Below are positions 935-39,384 of a stretch of DNA of 64,000 nt, piece after piece. A model generated the notes under the pieces. It saw only the letters and a list, made by a program, of their open reading frames with translations, was not told the DNA's origin and ran no database searches. The first letter of the stretch is position 1, and every line of letters begins with the position of its first letter. The stretch is from Acetobacter okinawensis (lineage in GTDB: Bacteria > Pseudomonadota > Alphaproteobacteria > Acetobacterales > Acetobacteraceae), in assembly GCF_002153655.1 (NCBI RefSeq), contig NZ_JOPJ01000050.1, positions 1-64,000 on the forward strand, given 5' to 3'. The translations under genes and the position numbers were made by a program.

Positions 935-1969
935 TCAGCCCACCCGGTTGGAGGTGGTGACCGTGGTCGGGGACGTGTCGGCGTTCACACGCCCCGCATC
1001 CACCGCCGCACCGTGGCGCACGCCACCGATCAGGATGGACTGCAGGTCATCGGCAAAGTCACGCACCTGGTCCATGGCCCCTTTGTTGCGGCGCACCAGC
1101 AGGTTGTAACCCAGCACCGCAGGCACGGCTGTTGCCAGACCAATGGCGGTCATGATCAGCGATTCACCCACAGGCCCCGCCACCTTGTCGATGGAGGCCT
1201 GACCGGCAATGCCAATGGCGGTCAGCGCGTGGTAGATGCCCCACACCGTGCCGAACAGCCCGATGAACGGAGAGGTGGAGCCCACGGTGCCAAGGAAGGC
1301 CAGACCCTTCTGCAGGCTGTTCTGGATGTTGTTGACCGCACGCTGGATGGACATGGAGGTCCAGCTATGCAGGTCAATGGCTTCCTGCATCGTGCCCTCA
1401 TGGTGTTCGGCGGCTGTAATGCCGGTATCGGCAATATAGCGGAACGGAGAGGAGGAGGAGAGTGCGGACGCCCCTTCCTGGATGCTGTGTTTGGTCCAGA
1501 AGCTCTTGGTCGCATCCTTGGCGGCCGCGAACAGACGCCCCTGTTCGATGAACTTGGTGATCATGATGAACCATGTGCCAAGCGACATGATGAGCATGAT
1601 AACGAGCACGCCACGGGCGATAATATCGCCGTTGGACCACAGGGCGGACAGGCCGTAGGGGTTGGCGTCATCCTTGGCTTCGGGCGCCGGTGCGGGAGCC
1701 GGAGCTTCTGCCGGAGCGGCGGGGGCTGCGGGTGCAGGCGTTGCCGCACCATCGGCCGGGGCGGCTGCCGGAGCCGCGGCATCGGGTGCTGCGGGGGTGG
1801 CGGGAGCCGGAGCGGCGGCACCGTCTGCGGGGGCTGCGACCGGAGCGGGGGCTGCAGCCGGGGCAGCGGCGTCCTGCGCAAAGGCGGCCACGGGGGCTGC
1901 CGTGCTCAGCAGCAGCGCAAGAGCCGGAACGGCAAGACCTGACACAAAAGAACGGGGCAGTCTGCTCAT
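935..1969 (-). CDS. exbB: ExbB/MotA-TolQ family proton channel with signal peptide and Ala/Pro-rich extension
   Basis: Core of the TonB energising motor. The start chosen (ATG at 1969, 344 residues) gives a good signal sequence, SRLPRSFVSGLAVPALALL, ending near AFAQ; an in-frame ATG at 1987 would add six residues. A long low-complexity stretch of Ala, Pro and Asp-Gly (about residues 30-95) follows and should lie in the periplasm. The channel domain has three membrane segments: a first near WSNGDIIARGVLVIMLIM, and two C-terminal ones containing GTVGSTSPFIGLFGTVWG and GLATAVPAVLGYN, the family's pore-lining signatures. Standard ExbB proteins of about 240 residues lack the cleaved N-terminal extension. 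It lies between tonB (upstream) and exbD (three bases downstream). Confidence 0.93.
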   Translation of the reverse strand: MSRLPRSFVSGLAVPALALLLSTAAPVAAFAQDAAAPAAAPAPVAAPADGAAAPAPATPAAPDAAAPAAAPADGAATPAPAAPAAPAEAPAPAPAPEAKDDANPYGLSALWSNGDIIARGVLVIMLIMSLGTWFIMITKFIEQGRLFAAAKDATKSFWTKHSIQEGASALSSSSPFRYIADTGITAAEHHEGTMQEAIDLHSWTSMSIQRAVNNIQNSLQKGLAFLGTVGSTSPFIGLFGTVWGIYHALTAIGIAGQASIDKVAGPVGESLIMTAIGLATAVPAVLGYNLLVRRNKGAMDQVRDFADDLQSILIGGVRHGAAVDAGRVNADTSPTTVTTSNRVG

Positions 1970-2093
1970 GTTACTCAAGATCCTCATGCAATGGCCCGGT
2001 CCTCTTGATCCCCTGCCGGGGTGGACCGGGCGGTCCGTAGTGGTTTGTTGGTCCAAAGCGGGCCCGGCCGCAGCCGGACCACTGGTGTGTGCG

Positions 2094-2702
2094 TCAGTCA
2101 TCAAGCCGGAAGCGGATGACATACGTCTTGTTCAGTTCCCGCACGGGCACCCCGTTGCGGCTGGCGGGCCGGTAGCGGGCCTTGTGCACGTAGTCCAGCG
2201 CCGACTGGGCAAAGGCCTGACCACCGGTGACAGACTGCACGTGGCAGTTGCTGGTCATGCCTGTTGTCTCCACGTCGCACACAACAGTCACGCGGCCTTC
2301 AATGTTCTCTTCCTCCATTTCTGGCGGATACACGGGGCGTGCGCTGTTCAGGGGCGATGTGCCTGCCGTTGTATCGGGCGAGTCATTGGGCGGTGTGTCC
2401 GCGGGGGGTGCCTTGGCGGTCTGTGTTGGCGGTGCCACAGGCTGCTTGGGCGGTGTGCGGGCCACATGCTTCATGGGTGGCTTGGGCGGGGGCGGCACCT
2501 CGATCTTTGGCGGCAGAACACGCGTCTGAATAGGCGGCTTGGGCGGTGGAGGCGCGCTCTCACCCTTCCCCATCCCGGAAATCAGGCCCCATATGCCCAG
2601 AACGTGCAGGAAAAGCACGAGCAGGAATACAATCACACCAACAGCAGCACTTGCCCGAAAGACATAGTTTGCCGAACCTGGCTGCTGCTCAGGGTTACTC
2701 AT
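2094..2702 (-). CDS. tonB: Energy transducer TonB
   Basis: Periplasm-spanning protein that passes ExbBD energy to outer-membrane TonB-dependent receptors such as siderophore receptors. The start at 2702 is preceded by a strong GGGAGGAAGG ribosome-binding site; the frame stays open further upstream but without such a site. The 202-residue protein has an N-terminal anchor helix (about 18-42), a proline-rich spacer with repeated PPPPKPP and PPK motifs, and a C-terminal TonB domain starting near SARPVYPPEMEEENIEG and ending in the typical YVIRFRLD strand. First gene of tonB-exbB-exbD-exbD; a gap of 124 bases separates it from exbB. Confidence 0.92.
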   Translation of the reverse strand: MSNPEQQPGSANYVFRASAAVGVIVFLLVLFLHVLGIWGLISGMGKGESAPPPPKPPIQTRVLPPKIEVPPPPKPPMKHVARTPPKQPVAPPTQTAKAPPADTPPNDSPDTTAGTSPLNSARPVYPPEMEEENIEGRVTVVCDVETTGMTSNCHVQSVTGGQAFAQSALDYVHKARYRPASRNGVPVRELNKTYVIRFRLDD

Positions 2703-2882
2703 TTTGGCCCTTCCTCCCTTCAAACTGCCAGAACAGACAGGCTCTGTTCTTTTTTCAGTTATGAAAACACTCAAATGACATCTGGTCCCGTAAACCAGAA
2801 TGGCAGCCCTGACGGTCTGCCTTTTATCTATTGTGTTGATTGGGCAATCTGGCACGGCAGATGTCAAGCGGCTTATCTGAGA

Positions 2883-2902
2883 AAAGTTTGCATATAAACT
2901 TT
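2883..2902. promoter_or_regulatory. Palindrome upstream of tonB
   Basis: Arms AAAGTTT and AAACTTT flank the spacer GCATAT, about 180 bases upstream of the tonB start and just downstream of the prfB terminator. On the tonB strand a TTGACA hexamer follows it near 2859. The repeat does not match the Fur, Irr or RirA consensus sites as I know them. It could be an operator for the tonB unit; no regulator is identifiable. Confidence 0.3.
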
Positions 2903-2930
2903 AGGGACCTAACCCCCTTGCACAAAAGAA

Positions 2931-2957
2931 AAAAGGCGGACCTGAAGTCCGCCTTTT
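2931..2957 (-). terminator. Rho-independent terminator of prfB
   Basis: Perfect 11-bp stem (AAAAGGCGGAC paired with GTCCGCCTTTT) with a five-base loop, followed on the minus strand by a T-rich tract. It lies 42 bases after the prfB stop and closes the mrcA-prfB direction of transcription. Confidence 0.9.
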
Positions 2958-2998
2958 GCCCAATATGCCCATAACTGGCGCAGCGCTCTAACGGGCCA

Positions 2999-4130
2999 TT
3001 ACTGCGCGGTTGCGCTGGCCTCCGAACGGGTGGCCCCAACACGCATGGCCAGCGCCGCCGCCATGAACGCATCCAGCTCCCCATCCAGCACGGCGTCAGG
3101 GTTGCCGGTCTCAACGCTGGTGCGCAGGTCCTTGACCATCTGATAAGGGGCCAGAACATACGAGCGGATCTGGTGCCCCCAGCCAATATCGGTCTTGGCC
3201 GCCTCGGCCTCGGCAGCGGCGGCCTCACGCCGTTGCAACTCGGCCTCGTACATACGCGCACGCAGCATCTGCATAGCCGTAGCACGGTTCCTGTGCTGCG
3301 AGCGGTCCGTCTGGCACGCCACCACAATGCCGGTGGGAATATGGGTAATACGGATAGCGGAGTCCGTTTTGTTAACGTGCTGCCCACCCGCGCCAGAGGC
3401 CCGGAATGTGTCCACCTTCAGGTCTGCGTCATTGATTTCAATTTCAATTGAATCATCAATCACCGGATAAACCCAGACCGATGCAAAGGATGTCTGCCGC
3501 CGGGCTGCCGCATCAAAGGGAGAAATGCGGACAAGGCGGTGCACGCCTGCCTCGGTTTTGAGCCAGCCATAAGCATTGGGGCCGGAGACCAGAATGGTCG
3601 CGGATTTAAGCCCGGCCTGTTCCCCTTCCGAGCTTTCAATCAGCGTCACCTTATAATTATGCGCCTCTGCCCAGCGGGTGTACATGCGCAGCATCATTTC
3701 GGCCCAGTCCTGTGCCTCCGTGCCACCTGCCCCTGCGTTGACTTCCAGATAACAGTCGTTGCTGTCCGCCTCCCCTGAGAGCAGGCTTTCAATCTCACGC
3801 CGTTTGGCTTCATCTGCCAGAGCGCGCAGGCTGGCCATGCCCTCGGCCACCAGATCGGCGTCGCCTTCGGCTTCGGCCATCTCAATCAGTTCGGACGTAT
3901 CGCTTACGTTGGTTTCCAACGCCTGCACGCCCTCGATCTGGTTGGCCAGAAGTGTGCGCTCGCGCATCATTTTCTGCGCGGCTTCAGGGTTGTTCCACAG
4001 GTCGGGGTCTTCTGCCTGGTTGTTCAGTTCCGCAAGGCGGGCTTCTGCGACATCCCAGTTAAAGATGCCTCCTCAGCAGCGCTACGGACTGCTTGATCTG
4101 TTCATTAAGGGCTTCTGTCTCGGCGGACAT
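2999..4130 (-). CDS. prfB: Peptide chain release factor 2, expressed by +1 programmed frameshift
   Basis: Class I release factor that reads UGA and UAA. The first 23 codons run from ATG at 4130 to CTT at 4062 and are followed by an in-frame TAA (4061-4059). Skipping one T gives [12 protein letters not shown] and continues for 353 codons to 2999, a 376-residue product of normal RF2 length. The second part carries the SPF anticodon-like motif ([12 protein letters not shown]) and the GGQ motif ([14 protein letters not shown]). The site AGG-AGG-CAT-CTT-TAA-C has the same spacing as the classical prfB site, with a strong internal Shine-Dalgarno sequence. The stop there is TAA, where the best known sites have TGA. 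A start only at 3970 would remove most of the N-terminal helical domain. It is 59 bases from mrcA. Confidence 0.93.
4058..4073 (-). promoter_or_regulatory. Programmed +1 ribosomal frameshift site in prfB
   Basis: On the minus strand the order is AGGAGG (4073-4068), CAT, slippery CTT (4064-4062), TAA stop (4061-4059), then C. The AGGAGG pairs with the anti-Shine-Dalgarno during elongation and pulls the ribosome forward by one base. This is the RF2 autoregulation element; UAA in place of UGA is the odd point because RF1 also reads UAA. Confidence 0.88.
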
Positions 4131-30751: not shown

Positions 30752-32005
30752 ATGACCCTGCCGCAAAAATTCGACCAGCTCAGCATGGGGTCCCTCGCGC
30801 AAGATGGATTCAGACTCTGCCCGACAGAATCTGGTGGCGCAGTGATGGAAATTTTCAAAAACCATCCAGACACCCATCATATTTGCATTATCAATGATAA
30901 AAATATCCCCGTCGGCGTTGTGGAACGGCAGAAGTTCCTCTCCCTTATGTCCAGCCCGTTTTCCTACGCGCTGTACCACAAACGGCCAGTCACCCTGCTG
31001 ATGGATGACGCGCCACTTATGGTGGAGGCCAGAACACCCATACTGGATTTTACAAAACAGGTTCTGAACAACAAAATATCCGATATTAACAAATCTTTTA
31101 TTATCACGCATAATCAGCAGTACATCGGCACGGCAACCCCGTTTGACCTGATGCGGATGTCCTATGTTCACAGCAACCGCATTTCCGATACACTGCAAAC
31201 CAGAACCAGAACGCTGCATGAAACACTGAATAAAATCCAGACTGCCACACATTCGATCAACACCGAATCACGCAATCTCAAGGACGAGTCGGAAACTCTC
31301 TCGGCGCGCAACAGCACGCAAAACCAGCACCTGCTGGAGTCCGACCTCAGAATTAAATCCACCATTCAGAAAACTGAAGACCAGAACGTAAAAATGGAGC
31401 AATCCAGAAATTATGTTCAACATGCTTCCCGCAGCATTCGTGAATCGTGTGAAAAAATTAATGACACCATAGAAAAGTTCAAAAAAATATCGGAAGCATC
31501 AGATGATATTGGAAAAATTCTCAATATCATGAAAAGTATTTCATCCCAGATCAATATTCTGGGCATCAATGCGACCATAGAAGCTGCAAAAGCAGGTAGC
31601 GGCAGTGCCGGGTTTGCCGTGGTCGCGCAGGAAATCCGAAACCTGTCACGCATGACATCGGATTCCCTCTTGCGGACAAAAAATCTTATTGCCTATTCGC
31701 AGGATGCCATAAGCACCTGCTCGGACTCGATGAATGACAACTCCCAGACATTGGCGGGAATTATTCATCATGTTGAAAAAATAAGCCGTTCGTTCAAGGA
31801 GTTTGAAGAAACATCCCTTGCACAGAAAGAGGAAATCAACCAGCTCCACCAGATCATGCAAAAGCTGAATGCCTCTACCGCCAAAAATAACGAAACCGTC
31901 CACAATACCAACGCAATCTGCGATAATCTGTTCATCAATGTTTCAGAACTCGCGCAGATCACCAGCTCCATGCACACCCTGCCAGCGCATTATAACCTGC
32001 AATAA
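30752..32005 (+). CDS. Soluble methyl-accepting chemotaxis-like protein
   Basis: 417 residues without signal peptide or membrane helix. Residues about 1-140 form a mixed alpha/beta sensor region resembling the CBS-like module of GGDEF/EAL proteins (HHICIINDKNIPVGVVERQK, KSFIITHNQQYIGTATPFDL). The rest is a long coiled coil whose tip matches the receptor signalling hairpin: INILGINATIEAAKAGSGSA then GFAVVAQEIRNLS, which contacts CheA and CheW. No CheR-tethering pentapeptide ends the protein. Codon use is AT-richer than in neighbours, which may indicate transfer. No che genes are in the window. The start lacks a ribosome-binding site; ATG at 30785 is an alternative. Confidence 0.85.
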   Translation: MTLPQKFDQLSMGSLAQDGFRLCPTESGGAVMEIFKNHPDTHHICIINDKNIPVGVVERQKFLSLMSSPFSYALYHKRPVTLLMDDAPLMVEARTPILDFTKQVLNNKISDINKSFIITHNQQYIGTATPFDLMRMSYVHSNRISDTLQTRTRTLHETLNKIQTATHSINTESRNLKDESETLSARNSTQNQHLLESDLRIKSTIQKTEDQNVKMEQSRNYVQHASRSIRESCEKINDTIEKFKKISEASDDIGKILNIMKSISSQINILGINATIEAAKAGSGSAGFAVVAQEIRNLSRMTSDSLLRTKNLIAYSQDAISTCSDSMNDNSQTLAGIIHHVEKISRSFKEFEETSLAQKEEINQLHQIMQKLNASTAKNNETVHNTNAICDNLFINVSELAQITSSMHTLPAHYNLQ

Positions 32006-32064: not shown

Positions 32065-33390
32065 TCAGGCCACTTTTTCAACCGCCTGCGCCCTGAGTTC
32101 TGGCATCACACCTTCCTCACGCAGCAACTGCGCAAGTGCGCGCACCATATCGTCCATCATCTCGTCCGTATGGAACGGGCCGGGGGTCAGGCGCAGGCGC
32201 TCGGTACCTTCAGGCACCGTCGGGTAGTTGATCGGCGTTGCATAATGGCCGAACTCCACCAGCAGGCGGCGGCAGATGCGCTTGCAACGCTCCGCCTCCC
32301 CAATGGGAATAGGCACAATATGGCTCGGCGTCATGGTAAAGGGTACACCAGCCGCACGCAGGCGCTGGCGCATGGTATGCACCCGCTCGAACAGGGACTC
32401 GCGCCGCCAGTTTTCGGCCCGCACCTTGCGCACACTGGCCAGAGCAGCCCCCACCACGGATGGCGGCAGGGCTGTGGTGAAAATAAACCCCGAAGCCGTT
32501 GAGCGCAGAAAATCCACAATTTCGGCCGAGGCGGTAATATAACCACCATGCACGCCAAACCCTTTGGCCAGCGTACCCTCAATAATATCGACCTGATCAG
32601 CAACCCCATCACGCTGGGACACACCGCCCCCTTCGTGGCCGTACAGCCCTACGGCATGCACTTCGTCCAGATAGGTCAGGGCATTATATTTTCGGGCCAG
32701 AGCACAGATCGCACCGATGTCGGACATGTCTCCATCCATGGAGTACACGCTCTCAAACGCAATCAGCTTGGGGGCGTCTGCCGGGGCAGCGGCCAGTTTT
32801 GCCTCAAGGTCGTGCAGGTCATTATGTTCAAAAATAACCGTCTGCGACCCCCGAGCCCCTTTAATGCCCGCGATCATGGAGGCATGGTTCAGGCGGTCGG
32901 AAAAACAGATCCAGCCGGGCATGGACATCAGAATTGTCTGCAGACTGGCCTGATTGGACACATAGCCCGAAATAAAGAGCAGCCCCGCCTCCTTGCCATG
33001 CAGGGCGGCAAGCTCGGCCTCAAGCTGGTTGTGCAGCGGGCTGGTGCCCGCAATGTTGCGCGTGCCACCGGCACCTGCGCCATGCTCACGTATGGCAGCA
33101 ATGGCGGCATCCTGCACTTCGGGCACAACACCCATGCCCAGATAGTCGTTGGTGGACCAGACGATAACCTCACGCCCCTCGGGCATATTGGCCACGTATT
33201 CCTCATACAGGGGAAAGCGTTCTGCCTGACGCGCCAGCGGCGTAAAGGTTCTGTAACGCCCCTGCTGCTTGATCCGCCCCAGCGCTTCCTCACAATGGTC
33301 ATAGAAAGGGTGCCGGGCGTTCTTGATCGCTCCCACGCTTGGTTTCTCCTCGCTTCTCGTCAGAAACGGTCGGGGCATGGGCTTACCCAT
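32065..33390 (-). CDS. hemA: 5-aminolevulinate synthase
   Basis: PLP enzyme condensing glycine and succinyl-CoA, first step of haem synthesis by the C4 route typical of alphaproteobacteria. 441 residues with [25 protein letters not shown], the [10 protein letters not shown] aspartate loop and the PLP lysine in [14 protein letters not shown]. The start at 33390 is supported only by length; ATG four codons later is equally possible. Haem demand is high in bacteria with cytochrome-linked dehydrogenases, and sdh lies nearby. Confidence 0.96.
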
Positions 33391-33441: not shown

Positions 33442-33951
33442 CTACCGCACATACACCCTTACGGTTGGCTTCGTCACCGCTGAATCCGGCATAGCGGACA
33501 TTTCCACCTGTGTCTGGGGCACCCCGGCATCAACCAGCGCCTGCATAACAGCGTGTCCGTCGTGCTGGACCAGCGCAAGCAGGGCAGACTGTTCAGCCTC
33601 CTGCGCGGCCGGATCATCCTGTGCAACAGGGGCTTGCCCTGCCTGCGGCGGCACCAGACAGCTTACAACAAAGAGCACTTCCTGCTTTCGCGCAAGGGCT
33701 CTGTGGGCAATCTGCTCCACGGGGGCCTGCCACTCCGCCTGCGGTGTGCCTGCCACAAGCTCAATCAAGGGCGGCACGGGGGGCGGGCCGGGAGGCGGTG
33801 GAGGAATATACGGTTTGGGTTCAACCCCGGCCTGCGGGTTGAAAGTTTTCTGGTCAACCAGTTTGCACCCGGCCATGCCACCCAGCAGGCCAACGGCAAG
33901 TGCCACCCGCAAAGCACGCCCCTTGTTTGCGGCATGAAAAACAGACAGCAT
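33442..33951 (-). CDS. Proline-rich lipoprotein of unknown function
   Basis: 169 residues from ATG at 33951 behind GGAGAAG. The signal ends in a lipobox (LLGGMAGC), so the mature protein is lipid-anchored. A short linker with PYIPPPPPGPPPVPPL follows, then about 110 residues with Ala/Gln-rich helices and an end (QALVDAGVPQTQVEMSA) that faintly recalls the core of OmpA-like domains but lacks their peptidoglycan-binding residues. Lineage-specific envelope protein, role unknown. It lies just upstream of hemA on the same strand and is divergent from the transketolase-like gene. Confidence 0.65.
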   Translation of the reverse strand: MLSVFHAANKGRALRVALAVGLLGGMAGCKLVDQKTFNPQAGVEPKPYIPPPPPGPPPVPPLIELVAGTPQAEWQAPVEQIAHRALARKQEVLFVVSCLVPPQAGQAPVAQDDPAAQEAEQSALLALVQHDGHAVMQALVDAGVPQTQVEMSAMPDSAVTKPTVRVYVR

Positions 33952-34205
33952 GGCCAGATACTTCTCCACTCGAACATCTTGCGCGCCAGACGCACATATT
34001 TTGCAGGGCCGTTGCCTCTTCTTTCGCGCTCCCACGCGTCGGGCGCAAGCCCCTAACAACAGTGTTGCCCCGCAAAAAACGTGAATGCCGCCCCAAATCT
34101 GCCTCTTGCGGTGACCATTTGCTCTCTGGTTAACTGCATGCACGCGGCCAGCCTGTTCTGGCGCGCAGCTTATGTACCGCACTCCCTCTGACAGACACAG
34201 GGCAG

Positions 34206-36161
34206 ATGGCCAGCATACCATCCACAGACCATACGACCTTATCCTCCACCCCGCAGGACACGCTTGTCCTGCGTATGGACAAGGCCGCACGGGCGCTGCT
34301 GGCCGCAGGCACAACCGAGGCAGACACCCAGACCGAACTGCAAACCCTCTGCCTGCCCATTACCGCACTATGGTGCCGTATCCTGCGCTTTGACCCCGCC
34401 GTACCCAACTGGCCAGACCGCGACAGATGCGTTGTTCCCTCCTCTGCCATGCTGCCCCTGCTCTCAGCCATGCTGCACCTGACTGCACCGGATACGCAGG
34501 ATTTGAGTGCCACAGTGGATTATGGCCAGCACCCCGCAGTGGAAATTGCCACCGGCCCAGCCGGGCAGGGCATGGCGGCGGCGGCAGGCATGGCTCTGGC
34601 AGAGCAGCAACTGGCCAAACGCTATGGCCGGTCTCTGGTCAACCACCGCACATGGGTGCTCGCGCGTGACAGTGACCTGGCAACCGGGGTTGCGCTGGAA
34701 GCCGCACAGCTTGCCAGCCGCTTCGGGCTGAGCCGCATGGCCGTGCTGGTCTGCCCCTCCCCCCTGACAGACCCGACAGATTTTTCGGACTCGCTGGCGC
34801 GCTTTGGCGCGTCGGGGTGGAGTGTGCGCAAGGTGCGCGCGCACGACCTTGGGGCGATCATGAGTGCATTGCAGGCTATTCTGCGCGCCAGAAAACCAAC
34901 TTTGCTCGCCTGCATGCCCGAGTGCTGCCATACCCTGCCCGACCTGCCCGCCGAAGACGAACTGACAGGCCCGTGGAGCCCCACCGCCAGACGCGGTGCT
35001 TCCATCCGCCGCTCATGGCTGCGCAGGCTGGCCCAACACCGTGGCCGCGCGGACTTTGAGCGCGAACTGGCAGGTAAACCCCGCCAGACCATGCGCGAGG
35101 ACTGGGGGCGACTATGGCGGCAGACCATGCGGGCCGCACCCAACGGGTCATCCCAGCAGGCAGCCTTTGCCGGGTTGGGGGCCTTGGCGCTCCTGCGTCA
35201 GGACCTGGCCATTCTGGCCGCAACCTCCAGCACCAGAAGCGCACGCCGGGCCAACCTGCCCATTCCCTTCAGCCATTCCGCGCAGCCTTGTGGCATACAG
35301 GAGCATGGCATGGCGGGCATGCTCAACGGCATGGCCCGCCATGGCGGCATACTGCCCTGTGGTGTTGCGGGCATGATGACCATTGACCGCATGCGCTCCG
35401 CCCTGCGCATGACAGCGCTCATGCGCAGCAAGGTACTTTACCTGCTGACAGATGACGGACTGGCCCTGAGCGATAACGGCGGGGGCTGGCAGCCCGTGGA
35501 ACAGCTGGCCAGCCTGCGCGCCATGCCGCATCTGGCGGTTTTTCGCCCCGCCTGCGCGGAGGAAACCTTTGCCTGCTGGCAGGCCGCACTAAACTGGCCG
35601 CAAGGCCCGGCCCTGCTGATCCTGTGCCCCAACCCTCCACCCCCACGGGCAGGGGCCAGCAGGCGGGCAGGGCATTATGGCGGGCCATCCCACGGGGGCT
35701 ACCTTGCAAGCTGTGGGGCAGGGGCGCGGCATGTCACGCTCATGGCATCCGGCCCCGAGGTTGCCATTGCCACACAGGCAGGCCAGCATCTGAGCGAGCA
35801 GGGGTTGAATGTGGCTGTTGTCTCCATCCCCTGCTGGGAGGTTTTTGCACAGCAGACCCCCGCCTACCGCGCAGCTGTGCTGGGGAGCGAGGGCCTGCGC
35901 GTGGGAATAGAGGCAGCCAGCAGCTTTGGCTGGGAACGCTGGCTTGGGGCGGATGGAATTTTCGTTGGCATGGATGATTTTGGCATATCCGCTCCCGCCA
36001 ACGCGGTGTATGAACGCTTTGGCATTACAGCCGGAGCGATCTGCGAGAAAGTGCTTGCGCGTTTTCTGGCATCTGGAGCGCAAAAGGACTCGTCCCCAAC
36101 CGCCCCATCTTCGTCCCGGCTGGAAGACCTGGACATGTCACTAACGATAACAAGACTATAA
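34206..36161 (+). CDS. Transketolase-like protein with degenerate active site
   Basis: 651 residues aligning with transketolase along its length: PNWPDRDRCVV, ATGPAGQGMAAAAGMALAE, GIQEHGMAGMLNGMARHGG and WQPVEQLASLR correspond to known blocks. Key residues are missing. SNGHG is PSSAM (78-82), GDG of the ThDP motif is RDS (155-157, only the Asp kept), the Asn metal ligand region is gone, and the catalytic DGPTH loop reads NGGGW (424-428). His109 and Glu366 remain. Normal catalysis is therefore unlikely; a regulatory or structural role is possible. It lies 21 bases upstream of gap and should be co-transcribed with gap-pgk. Confidence 0.82.
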   Translation: MASIPSTDHTTLSSTPQDTLVLRMDKAARALLAAGTTEADTQTELQTLCLPITALWCRILRFDPAVPNWPDRDRCVVPSSAMLPLLSAMLHLTAPDTQDLSATVDYGQHPAVEIATGPAGQGMAAAAGMALAEQQLAKRYGRSLVNHRTWVLARDSDLATGVALEAAQLASRFGLSRMAVLVCPSPLTDPTDFSDSLARFGASGWSVRKVRAHDLGAIMSALQAILRARKPTLLACMPECCHTLPDLPAEDELTGPWSPTARRGASIRRSWLRRLAQHRGRADFERELAGKPRQTMREDWGRLWRQTMRAAPNGSSQQAAFAGLGALALLRQDLAILAATSSTRSARRANLPIPFSHSAQPCGIQEHGMAGMLNGMARHGGILPCGVAGMMTIDRMRSALRMTALMRSKVLYLLTDDGLALSDNGGGWQPVEQLASLRAMPHLAVFRPACAEETFACWQAALNWPQGPALLILCPNPPPPRAGASRRAGHYGGPSHGGYLASCGAGARHVTLMASGPEVAIATQAGQHLSEQGLNVAVVSIPCWEVFAQQTPAYRAAVLGSEGLRVGIEAASSFGWERWLGADGIFVGMDDFGISAPANAVYERFGITAGAICEKVLARFLASGAQKDSSPTAPSSSRLEDLDMSLTITRL

Positions 36162-36182: not shown

Positions 36183-37205
36183 ATGGCAGTCAAAATCGCC
36201 ATCAATGGCTTTGGACGTATCGGTCGCCTTGTGCTGCGCGGCATTATTGAAAGCGGGCGCACGGACGTGGTGCCGGTTGCCATTAACGATCTGGGCAGTG
36301 TGGAAGACAACGCACACCTCCTGAGCTACGACAGCGTGCATGGCCGCCTGCCTGCGGATGTACGGGTGGAAAATGGCAAGCTGATCATTTCCGCCAATGG
36401 CCGCACATGGGACCCGATTACCGTTTCCGCCGAGCGTGACCCCTCCAAGGTTCCTTTTGCGGGTGTTGATGTGGCCATGGAATGCACCGGCCTGTTCACC
36501 ACCAAGGAAAAAGCAGGTCTGCTACTGGCCGCTGGCGCACGCAAGGTCATTGTCTCCGCTCCGGCAACGGATGTGGACGCCACCATCGTGTTTGGCGTTA
36601 ATGAAGATGTGCTGACATCAGACATGACCGTTATCTCCAACGCATCCTGCACCACCAACTGTCTGGCTCCCGTTGCCAAGGTGATGGAAGATGCGTTTGG
36701 CATCGAGCGCGGCTACATGGTGACCATCCACTCCTACACCGGTGACCAGCGCACGGTGGATACGCTGCACAAGGACCTGCGCCGTGCACGTGCGGCTGGC
36801 ATGAACATGATCCCCACCTCCACAGGTGCGGCGCGCGCCGTGGGTCTGGTTCTGCCCCAGCTCAAAGGCAAGCTTGATGGCACGGCCATTCGCGTACCCA
36901 CGGCCAATGTCTCCGTGGTCTCGCTTGATTTTGTGCCAAAAACGGCTCCGCGCAGCGTGGAAGAGGTCAACAACGCCATTCGCGCAGTTGTGGACGCAGG
37001 CACAATGAAGAACGCTCTGGCCTATAACGAAGCCCCTCTGGTCAGCTCCGACTTCAACCACGCCATTGCATCCTCCACCTTTGACGCCACACAGACGGCT
37101 CTGGTCGATGGTGGCAAGCTGGTGCGCGTGTGCTCCTGGTACGACAACGAATGGGGCTTCTCCAACCGTATGTCCGATACGGCAGCCCTGTTTGGATCGC
37201 TCTGA
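36183..37205 (+). CDS. gap: Glyceraldehyde-3-phosphate dehydrogenase, type I
   Basis: Oxidises glyceraldehyde-3-phosphate to 1,3-bisphosphoglycerate with NAD. 340 residues: [17 protein letters not shown], the NAD-discriminating NDL after strand two, catalytic [30 protein letters not shown] in outline, and NEWGFSNRM at the C-terminus. CGGAG precedes the start at good spacing. The stop shares a base with the pgk start, so the two are translationally coupled. Confidence 0.97.
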
Positions 37206-38431
37206 TGGCAACCAACCTCCCCTTTGCTACGCTGGACACGCTTGACCCCAAGGGCAAGCGCATCCTGCTCCGTGTGGATCTGAACGTCCCCATGAAGGAC
37301 GGTCAGGTCACTGACCAGACCCGTATCGAGCGCATTGTTCCCACCATTGCGGAACTGGCGGACAAGGGCGGGCGGGTTATTCTGCTCAGCCATTTTGACC
37401 GGCCAAAAGGGCAGGTTGTGCCTGCCATGTCGCTCAAACCCATTGCCACGGCGCTGGCCACGGCACTGGGGCGTCCGGTCAACTTTGCGCATGACTGCAT
37501 CGGCCCCGATGCAGAAGCCGCAACACGCTCCCTGAACGATGGCGAAGTGCTGCTGCTCGAAAACACCCGCTTCCAGCCCGGTGAGGAAAAGAATGACGCG
37601 GAGCTTTCCGCAGCACTCGCCAGTCTGGGGGATGTGTATGTCAACGACGCATTCTCGGCCGCACACCGCGCCCATGCCTCCACGGCAGGTGTTGCCACGC
37701 ATCTGCCATCCTTTGGCGGACGTCTGATGGAAGCGGAGCTTCAGGCCCTGTTCGCCGCGCTGGAAAACCCCGAGCGCCCGGTTGGGGCCATTGTGGGTGG
37801 GGCCAAAATTTCCACCAAACTCCAGTTGCTTGAAAACCTTCTGGACAAGGTGGACATGCTGGCTATTGGTGGCGCCATGGCCAACACGTTTCTGGCCGCA
37901 CAGGGGCTGAATGTTGGCAAGTCGCTCAAGGAAGACGACATGCTGGACACGGCCCGCCAGATTATGGCGCAGGCCAAGGCCAAGAACTGCGACCTGATCC
38001 TGCCGGTTGATATGGTCATCTCCGAGGACTTTATAGCCGGAGCACCCACCAGCACCGTGCCTGCCAATGCCATTCCCGATGGGTGGATGGCGCTGGACGT
38101 GGGGCCGGAAACGGTCAAGCTCCTCAACAGCAAACTGGCAGGGTTGAAAACTCTGGTCTGGAACGGTCCGCTTGGCGTGTTTGAACTCCCTCCGTTTGAT
38201 GAGGGTACAAACGCCGTAGCGCAGGAAGCCGGACGCCTGACCAAGGCAGGGGCACTCAAAACCGTAGCGGGTGGGGGGGACACCGTGTCGGCCCTGCGCC
38301 ATGCCGGTGTGCTGCATGACATGACCTATGTCTCCACCGCTGGTGGCGCTTTTCTGGAATGGCTGGAGGGCAAGGTTCTGCCGGGCCTGACTGCCCTTAG
38401 CACCACGCTGGAAAAAACCCTGCCAATCTAA
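37205..38431 (+). CDS. pgk: Phosphoglycerate kinase
   Basis: Transfers phosphate from 1,3-bisphosphoglycerate to ADP. 408 residues from the ATG within TGATG at the gap stop. Motifs: [82 protein letters not shown] and the C-terminal nucleotide loop [16 protein letters not shown] terminator follows within 30 bases, closing the unit. Confidence 0.97.
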
Positions 38432-38703: not shown

Positions 38704-39384
38704 CTACTCTCTCCTGAGCACCTGATCGGTTAGAAAAGCGGCAATCCGGCCCGCCACAAAATCCTGTTTAAGAGCCGCCTCATCATACTCGTTGCACACC
38801 CATTCCATAAACGGGATGCGCCCCTCCGCCTGTGCTTGATACCGCAGAAAGAAAGCGTCCAGAATACCCGTGCGTGACCCACGAAAATGCCCAAACCGCC
38901 AGGACAGTTCGCCAAGAGCCTGCTCAGCACTCCCACCTTCGAACATGATAACCAGCGCCGAGGCCAGTCCCGCCCGATCCGCCCCAGACTTGCAGTGCAT
39001 AAGCATGGGAAACTGCAAGGAGCCATACATCTTGGCAAACCGCAGAATACGGTCTTTGTGGGGAGCGCCCCTGCTTTCAAACGCCATATCCAGATGGGTC
39101 AGCCCGATCCGGGCCGCGGCATTGCGCGAGAGGGCGTCCGAGCCGCACTGCCTGTGGCCACGCAGGTTCACCAGCGTCCGCAGGCCCAGCTTGCGCACAG
39201 CCCGCCGCAGGCGCGCAGGAGTGGGGTGGTTACAACGGTACACCTTGCCCGGAATAACGGCATGGAAATTGGTCCAGACCAGACGCAGCACCGCATGGTC
39301 CACAAACAGGCTGTCCGTCCATGCTCTGGCACGGCCGGTCTGGGTCGTAAGATGGCCGTTAAACACAAAACCCCCTTTTGTCAT
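38704..39384 (-). CDS. Cys-based (tyrosine/dual-specificity-like) phosphatase
   Basis: 226 residues. The signature loop is MHCKSGADRAGLAS, matching HCx5R with Cys as nucleophile and Arg binding phosphate. Upstream are the landmarks of the bacterial DSP-like family: FHAVIPGKVYRCNHPTP, LGLRTLVNLRG and a C-terminal SWRFGHFRGSRTGILDAFF. Substrates may be phosphoproteins, inositol phosphates or lipid phosphates. No signal peptide. The start at 39384 lacks a clear ribosome-binding site. It stands alone between the gap-pgk unit and sdhB. Confidence 0.83.
   Translation of the reverse strand: MTKGGFVFNGHLTTQTGRARAWTDSLFVDHAVLRLVWTNFHAVIPGKVYRCNHPTPARLRRAVRKLGLRTLVNLRGHRQCGSDALSRNAAARIGLTHLDMAFESRGAPHKDRILRFAKMYGSLQFPMLMHCKSGADRAGLASALVIMFEGGSAEQALGELSWRFGHFRGSRTGILDAFFLRYQAQAEGRIPFMEWVCNEYDEAALKQDFVAGRIAAFLTDQVLRRE

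Follow-up and report, generated by a model that had tools for sequence, protein, structure and literature searches.

A transketolase-fold gene preceding gap and pgk in Acetobacter is very probably a pseudoenzyme that remains under purifying selection

We analyzed a stretch of 64,000 nucleotides of Acetobacter okinawensis DNA, referred to below as the window, and in particular one of its open reading frames (ORFs), the transketolase (TK)-like product of which is labeled TKL. The ORF starts with an ATG, is uninterrupted, and is the first gene of a TKL-gap-pgk unit, with 21 bases between the end of its stop codon and the ATG of gap (36183). An earlier examination of the letters alone (the sequence-only reading) had described an intact length and frame and the same distance to gap, which was confirmed. 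The features of the locus are listed in Table 1. In named Acetobacter species, the gene order is hemA(-), small lipoprotein(-), TKL(+), gap(+) and pgk(+), and the window region is 96.6% identical to that of A. okinawensis JCM 25146. The small lipoprotein-like gene is without a Pfam match. A scan for sigma-70-like promoters gave no match, and neither did a comparison of anti-phage defence models with the locus. Two further genes were observed in the surroundings. Positions 30752-32005 encode a protein that resembles chemoreceptors: it has an MCP signalling domain, a weak CBS-like match at its N terminus and, as judged by eye, no evident transmembrane part; it is found near TKL only in the closest relatives of the window. 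Past pgk, at 38704-39384 (-), lies a gene for a dual-specificity/tyrosine-phosphatase-like protein, whose distance varies among relatives.

Table 1. Features of the TKL locus in the window; residues of known TK function are numbered as in Escherichia coli TktA
Feature	Position	Strand	Evidence or remark
hemA-like (5-aminolevulinate synthase), conserved neighbour	32065..33390	-	name by eye
Small lipoprotein-like gene, divergent from TKL, conserved neighbour	33442..33993	-	
TKL, very probable TK-fold pseudoenzyme, 651 aa	34206..36161	+	ORF, Pfam, alignments, AlphaFold2 model
PSSAM in place of SNGHG; H66 = A81	34437..34451	+	alignments
RDS (residues 154-156) in place of GDG; metal-ligand Asp kept, both Gly lost	34665..34673	+	
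Metal-ligand N185 site (= S185); I187/I189 loop deleted	34758..34763	+	alignments
Shortened segment, H261 substrate/ThDP loop missing	34917..34976	+	alignment
E366 = E411, ThDP glutamate, retained	35301..35303	+	alignments
R395 in place of Y440 (ThDP pyrimidine pocket)	35388..35390	+	alignment
NGGGW in place of DGPTH; D469->N, H473->W (W428)	35475..35489	+	alignment
C-terminal domain, residues 490-620	35673..36065	+	constraint loss smallest among domains
gap, glyceraldehyde-3-phosphate dehydrogenase	36183..37205	+	SD-like GGAG closely 5'
pgk, phosphoglycerate kinase	37205..38431	+	Pfam PGK 5.4e-152

TKL is homologous to TKs and has their three-domain fold. Over residues 53-612 it matches the Pfam families Transketolase_N (E value 8.5e-28), Transket_pyr (3.4e-21) and Transketolase_C_1 (2.6e-34), and its score against the NCBIfam transketolase equivalog TIGR00232, 305.5 bits, is below the cut-off of 682.25. 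The structure prediction that the sequence-only reading had proposed as a check retained the TK fold: the AlphaFold2 model had a pLDDT of 80.4 and a pTM of 0.83, and the closest PDB structures were all transketolases (for 4xeu, Z 35.9 and rmsd 3.4 over 584 residues). Its active-site loops are of low confidence, and the intact control, a gap-linked TK from Rhodopila (L021, pLDDT 85.8), is likewise weak there, so that these loops were set aside as a sign of a collapsed pocket. TKL is probably a homodimer.

The alignment of TKL to TktA, whose residue numbering is used throughout, revealed that, of 17 core residues for cofactor and substrate, 15 are lost and only the equivalents of D155 and E411, the latter being the universal ThDP glutamate of TKs, are kept. 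The four active-site changes read from the letters alone, namely SNGHG to PSSAM, GDG to RDS, the disappearance of the metal-binding Asn region (N185, I187 and I189 being lost or deleted) and DGPTH to NGGGW, were all borne out, though the metal-ligand Asp persists within RDS. The sugar-phosphate residues H26, H100, H261, R358, S385, H461, D469, H473 and R520 are replaced or deleted without exception, H261 along with its loop, and TKL also lacks E160. Apart from D155, the ThDP/metal motif GDG...N is missing, as are the aromatic residues of the pyrimidine pocket (F434, F437 and Y440, the last replaced by Arg). These replacements suggest that TKL has no TK activity; residual ThDP binding may be conceivable for the window's copy, since E411 and D155 persist in it.

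The search for a second, intact tkt, another check proposed by the sequence-only reading, was successful. The same genome (2.72 Mb) contains, at G000:C80 (L074:6357-8552:-), a TK of 732 aa with 17/17 core residues, as against 2/17 in TKL, from which it differs further in an identity of about 29%. This gene is part of a pentose-phosphate cluster with a tal/pgi fusion (assigned by Pfam), gnd and pgl (both named by eye). The fusion next to it (L074:3411-6263:-) encodes a transaldolase/glucose-6-phosphate isomerase of 951 aa with Pfam TAL_FSA and PGI matches. Another full-length TK was present in every checked genome with a degenerate gap-linked copy; it was of the pentose-phosphate type in most of them and of a different lineage in G053, G086, G154, G179 and G199. 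In the genomes of the checked sample that have a single TK, the gap-linked copy is intact. Some genomes have a second TK together with an intact gap-linked copy, indicating that a replacement permits decay and does not force it. Copy numbers above two have been described, a published genome of Gluconacetobacter xylinus being listed with four tkt genes (PMC5908849), and one of the genomes that we compared (G060) harbors two tkt copies of the pentose-phosphate type (C1:276520-278625 and C1:2234275-2236392).

Our comparison covered genomes of the Acetobacteraceae, the only family returned by a search across the order, and in these genomes the close relatives of TKL are all located directly 5' of gap, save at contig ends or at the ends of the fetched stretch. 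The gap-linked rows of the tree (IQ-TREE, LG+C20 PMSF, quick search) comprised 19 intact copies (13-17/17 core residues) and 67 degenerate ones (0-4/17); four genomes have an intermediate copy (6-11/17). Many further genera of the family have an intact gap-linked TK. The gap-linked copies form one clade (support 100, starred), separate from that of the pentose-phosphate-cluster TKs (also 100, starred), and the degenerate copies form one group nested within it (SH-aLRT 94, below the starred level). The tree thus identifies TKL as the displaced ancestral tkt and not as a copy of a working one, and a recent duplication of the working tkt was rejected on this basis. The description of TKL as a crippled, maintained paralogue, which had been made from the letters alone, hence holds for the first two attributes and fails where it implies a duplicate of the working gene. 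One intermediate copy (L061) clusters with the intact Rhodopila copies, and constraining it into the degenerate group cost 61.6 log units (AU p 0.0026), which implies that decay started at least twice. TKL is absent from two Acetobacter-genus members with small genomes, G235 and G236, as well as from many other genera. In such genomes, a few hundred bases usually separate gap from the lipoprotein gene that precedes it, and no remnant of TKL was detectable between the two. These clean deletions indicate that TKL is dispensable in the lineages concerned and that gap can be expressed without it. In the locus of G235 (L155, about 1091-3248 with gap turned to +), TadE/TadG-like pilus ORFs, recognized by eye, replace TKL.

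The statement of the sequence-only reading that the gene looks maintained was corroborated by its selection pattern: dN/dS is far below 1 and frames are open in nearly all relatives, the opposite of the values near 1 and frameshifted relatives that had been named as grounds for abandoning it. Pairwise Nei-Gojobori counting, at divergences that are partly saturated, gave dN/dS values for TKL of 0.08-0.14 in the window's clade and of 0.04-0.32 in other degenerate clades. The corresponding values for gap in the window's clade were 0.02-0.07, and TKL evolves several-fold faster than gap. Intact gap-linked copies (L071/L073, L021-L023, L140/L141) had values of 0.07-0.13, so that the degenerate copies are about as constrained as the intact ones, and looser in several clades. 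When the neutral evolution of the window's TKL gene was simulated at 0.25-0.5 substitutions per site (300 runs per setting), a mean of 10-16 stop codons accumulated, and at each setting none of the 300 runs kept the frame open. By comparison, 44 of the 47 copies in the genus Acetobacter are full length; the remaining three are cut by contig ends (G224) or have frame breaks (G219 and G227). Low dN/dS and open frames led us to reject the possibility that TKL is a pseudogene.

The break in G219, which is A. okinawensis, is a TGA with four single-base indels around it, and hemA and mcp are broken in the same assembly as well. It may be a sequencing error, and this internal TGA was set aside as evidence of decay because of the indel-rich assembly. 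In the public assembly of A. okinawensis JCM 25146 (L007, apparently the same assembly as L082), the frames of mcp, hemA and TKL all seem to be broken within 6 kb, which calls for care with gene-loss calls from it. A further observation concerns synonymous divergence, which, among the copies of the seven nearest species, drops towards gap, from a dS of 0.96 (codons 81-160) to 0.29 (codons 561-640). The drop at the 3' end of TKL (codons 481-651) is perhaps due to a regulatory DNA element of gap or to recombination.

To describe how the pocket has changed, we used the 33 non-redundant sequences of the main degenerate clade, with the positions that are near-invariant in intact gap-linked TKs as a reference and 20 cofactor/substrate positions chosen from established structural knowledge of TKs. 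Only 1 of these 20 positions is kept, as compared to 125 of 296 other positions (Fisher p 6e-4), and the loss is thus targeted to the active site. Particular replacements recur: Arg takes the place of Y440 in 33/33 sequences, Trp that of H473 in 30/33, Asp or Glu that of H461 in 27/33, and Thr that of E160 in 26/33; the H261 column is gapped in 30/33. In 8/33 sequences, E411 is also lost, with V, A or D in its place, and these copies are not expected to carry out ThDP chemistry in the usual way. In intact TKs, the C-terminal domain is the less conserved one; in the degenerate copies it has lost the least constraint, its entropy increase being 0.68 bits as compared to about 1.0 elsewhere (p 0.0026). 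Of the conserved TKL sites at which intact gap-linked TKs are distinct from cluster TKs, 24 show the ancestral state, 1 shows the cluster state and 5 show neither, a ratio that gives no sign of a TKL surface adapting to the cluster TK.

Considering the loss of the catalytic residues and the persistence of both fold and purifying selection, we interpret TKL as a pseudoenzyme, with a probability of about 0.9. In the sequence of events that we propose, TKL would derive from the ancestral Acetobacteraceae TK of a tkt-gap-pgk unit, the reaction of which would have been taken over by a separate TK lineage, encoded either in the pentose-phosphate cluster (tal/pgi-gnd-pgl) or at another place. The gap-linked copy would next have lost the binding of ThDP, metal and sugar phosphate while staying folded, probably as a homodimer, under purifying selection at the amino acid level. 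The old cleft would have been retooled by Y440->R, H473->W, H461->D/E and E160->T, changes that predominate or are fixed across the main clade, and a newly formed site for a ligand or partner in this pocket, along with the conserved C-terminal domain, would carry a binding or regulatory role. That TKL is a non-catalytic binding or regulatory protein tied to lower glycolysis (GAPDH/PGK) appears to us about as probable as its opposite. Against such a role, TKL has been cleanly deleted in many genera and is thus not broadly required, it evolves several-fold faster than gap, and its partner and ligand are guesses. A tentative and rather doubtful extension is that TKL acts across the clade as a sensor or allosteric partner of lower glycolysis, its Arg/Trp cleft binding a new ligand or GAPDH and setting PPP/glycolysis flux.

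The active sites of TKs sit at the dimer interface, and a dead subunit could consequently tune a live one. By analogy with human TKTL1, which has been reported to bind TKT (PMC12525540), TKL might heterodimerise with the true TK of its genome and modulate its activity or direction. The conserved fold and C-terminal domain, and the other TK that accompanies every degenerate copy checked, are in line with this idea, which is nevertheless unlikely: conserved positions of TKL side with the ancestral gap-linked state over the state of the pentose-phosphate TK by 24:1, the five genomes named above have another TK from a different lineage, and TKL shares only about 29% identity with the TK of its own genome. 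In the light of these residue patterns, scaffolding of a true TK, which the sequence-only reading had put forward alongside regulation, appears mildly disfavoured.

Among the remaining explanations, TKL may be a redundant relic that is dying slowly, its leftover constraint stemming from foldability and the avoidance of toxic misfolding. The clean deletions, the fast evolution, the graded intermediates and the single frame breaks in G219 and G227 would agree with this, but a dN/dS of about 0.1 across a long divergence, pocket residues uniformly replaced by Arg/Trp and many full-length copies at just 40-50% identity would not, and the G219 stop is probably a sequencing error; we regard a relic as improbable. 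Much the same applies to a neofunctionalised enzyme whose retooled pocket would catalyse another, ThDP-independent reaction or use another cofactor. The pocket has acquired fixed polar or charged residues (R440, D/E461, W473), yet a recognisable new catalytic motif is absent, several pocket positions vary within the clade, and we know of no TK-fold enzyme that works without ThDP, all of which makes a new activity quite improbable. Finally, the ORF might act exclusively in cis, as a leader on whose transcription or translation the expression of gap-pgk depends. Its invariable place directly 5' of gap fits a leader, and the dS falling from 0.96 to 0.29 hints at a DNA element in its 3' end. The selection on amino acids (dN/dS about 0.1) and the many genera in which gap directly follows the divergent neighbour, without TKL, render this explanation highly improbable.

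Three known groups of proteins are instructive for the pseudoenzyme interpretation. The gap-linked tkt genes of Rhodopila (L021-L023) are orthologous to TKL, with the same position and clade and about 42-44% identity, and the gap-linked TKs of other Acetobacteraceae keep 13-17 of the 17 active-site residues, whereas TKL keeps 2. The pentose-phosphate-cluster TK (L074:6357-8552:-) has fold and family in common with TKL and differs in its separate clade, the low identity and the complete set of 17 residues. Human TKTL1 resembles TKL as a TK-fold paralogue that has lost ThDP-binding residues and kept the scaffold (PMC12525540). However, TKTL1 lost its site mainly through one 38-aa deletion in an animal duplicate, whereas TKL is a displaced ancestral bacterial operon gene with many point changes, loop deletions and fixed Arg/Trp. 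No report of a bacterial transketolase pseudoenzyme was found in the open-licence literature, which, given this scope, is a weak sign of novelty.

The genome paper on A. pasteurianus 386B describes two transketolases, APA386B_1152 and APA386B_1521, the latter numbered beside gap (1520) and pgk (1519) and published as functional (PMC3751514). By its position, APA386B_1521 would be the TKL gene, and the gap-linked copy of A. pasteurianus LMG 1262 (L016) is degenerate; the sequence evidence on TKL argues against a working transketolase. The open-licence literature yielded nothing useful on Acetobacter Tn-seq or on the expression of APA386B_1521, and no interaction or phenotype data were encountered there either. 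A gene that Acetobacter genome papers name transketolase is almost certainly not one, and its misannotation has consequences for models of metabolism in bacteria from vinegar, cocoa and insect guts. Across the Acetobacteraceae, the copies of this one enzyme at a single locus range from intact through intermediate to dead, in genomes that have a replacement enzyme and in others that do not, and form a series well suited to asking how an enzyme becomes a pseudoenzyme, namely which residues are lost first and what keeps the rest under selection.
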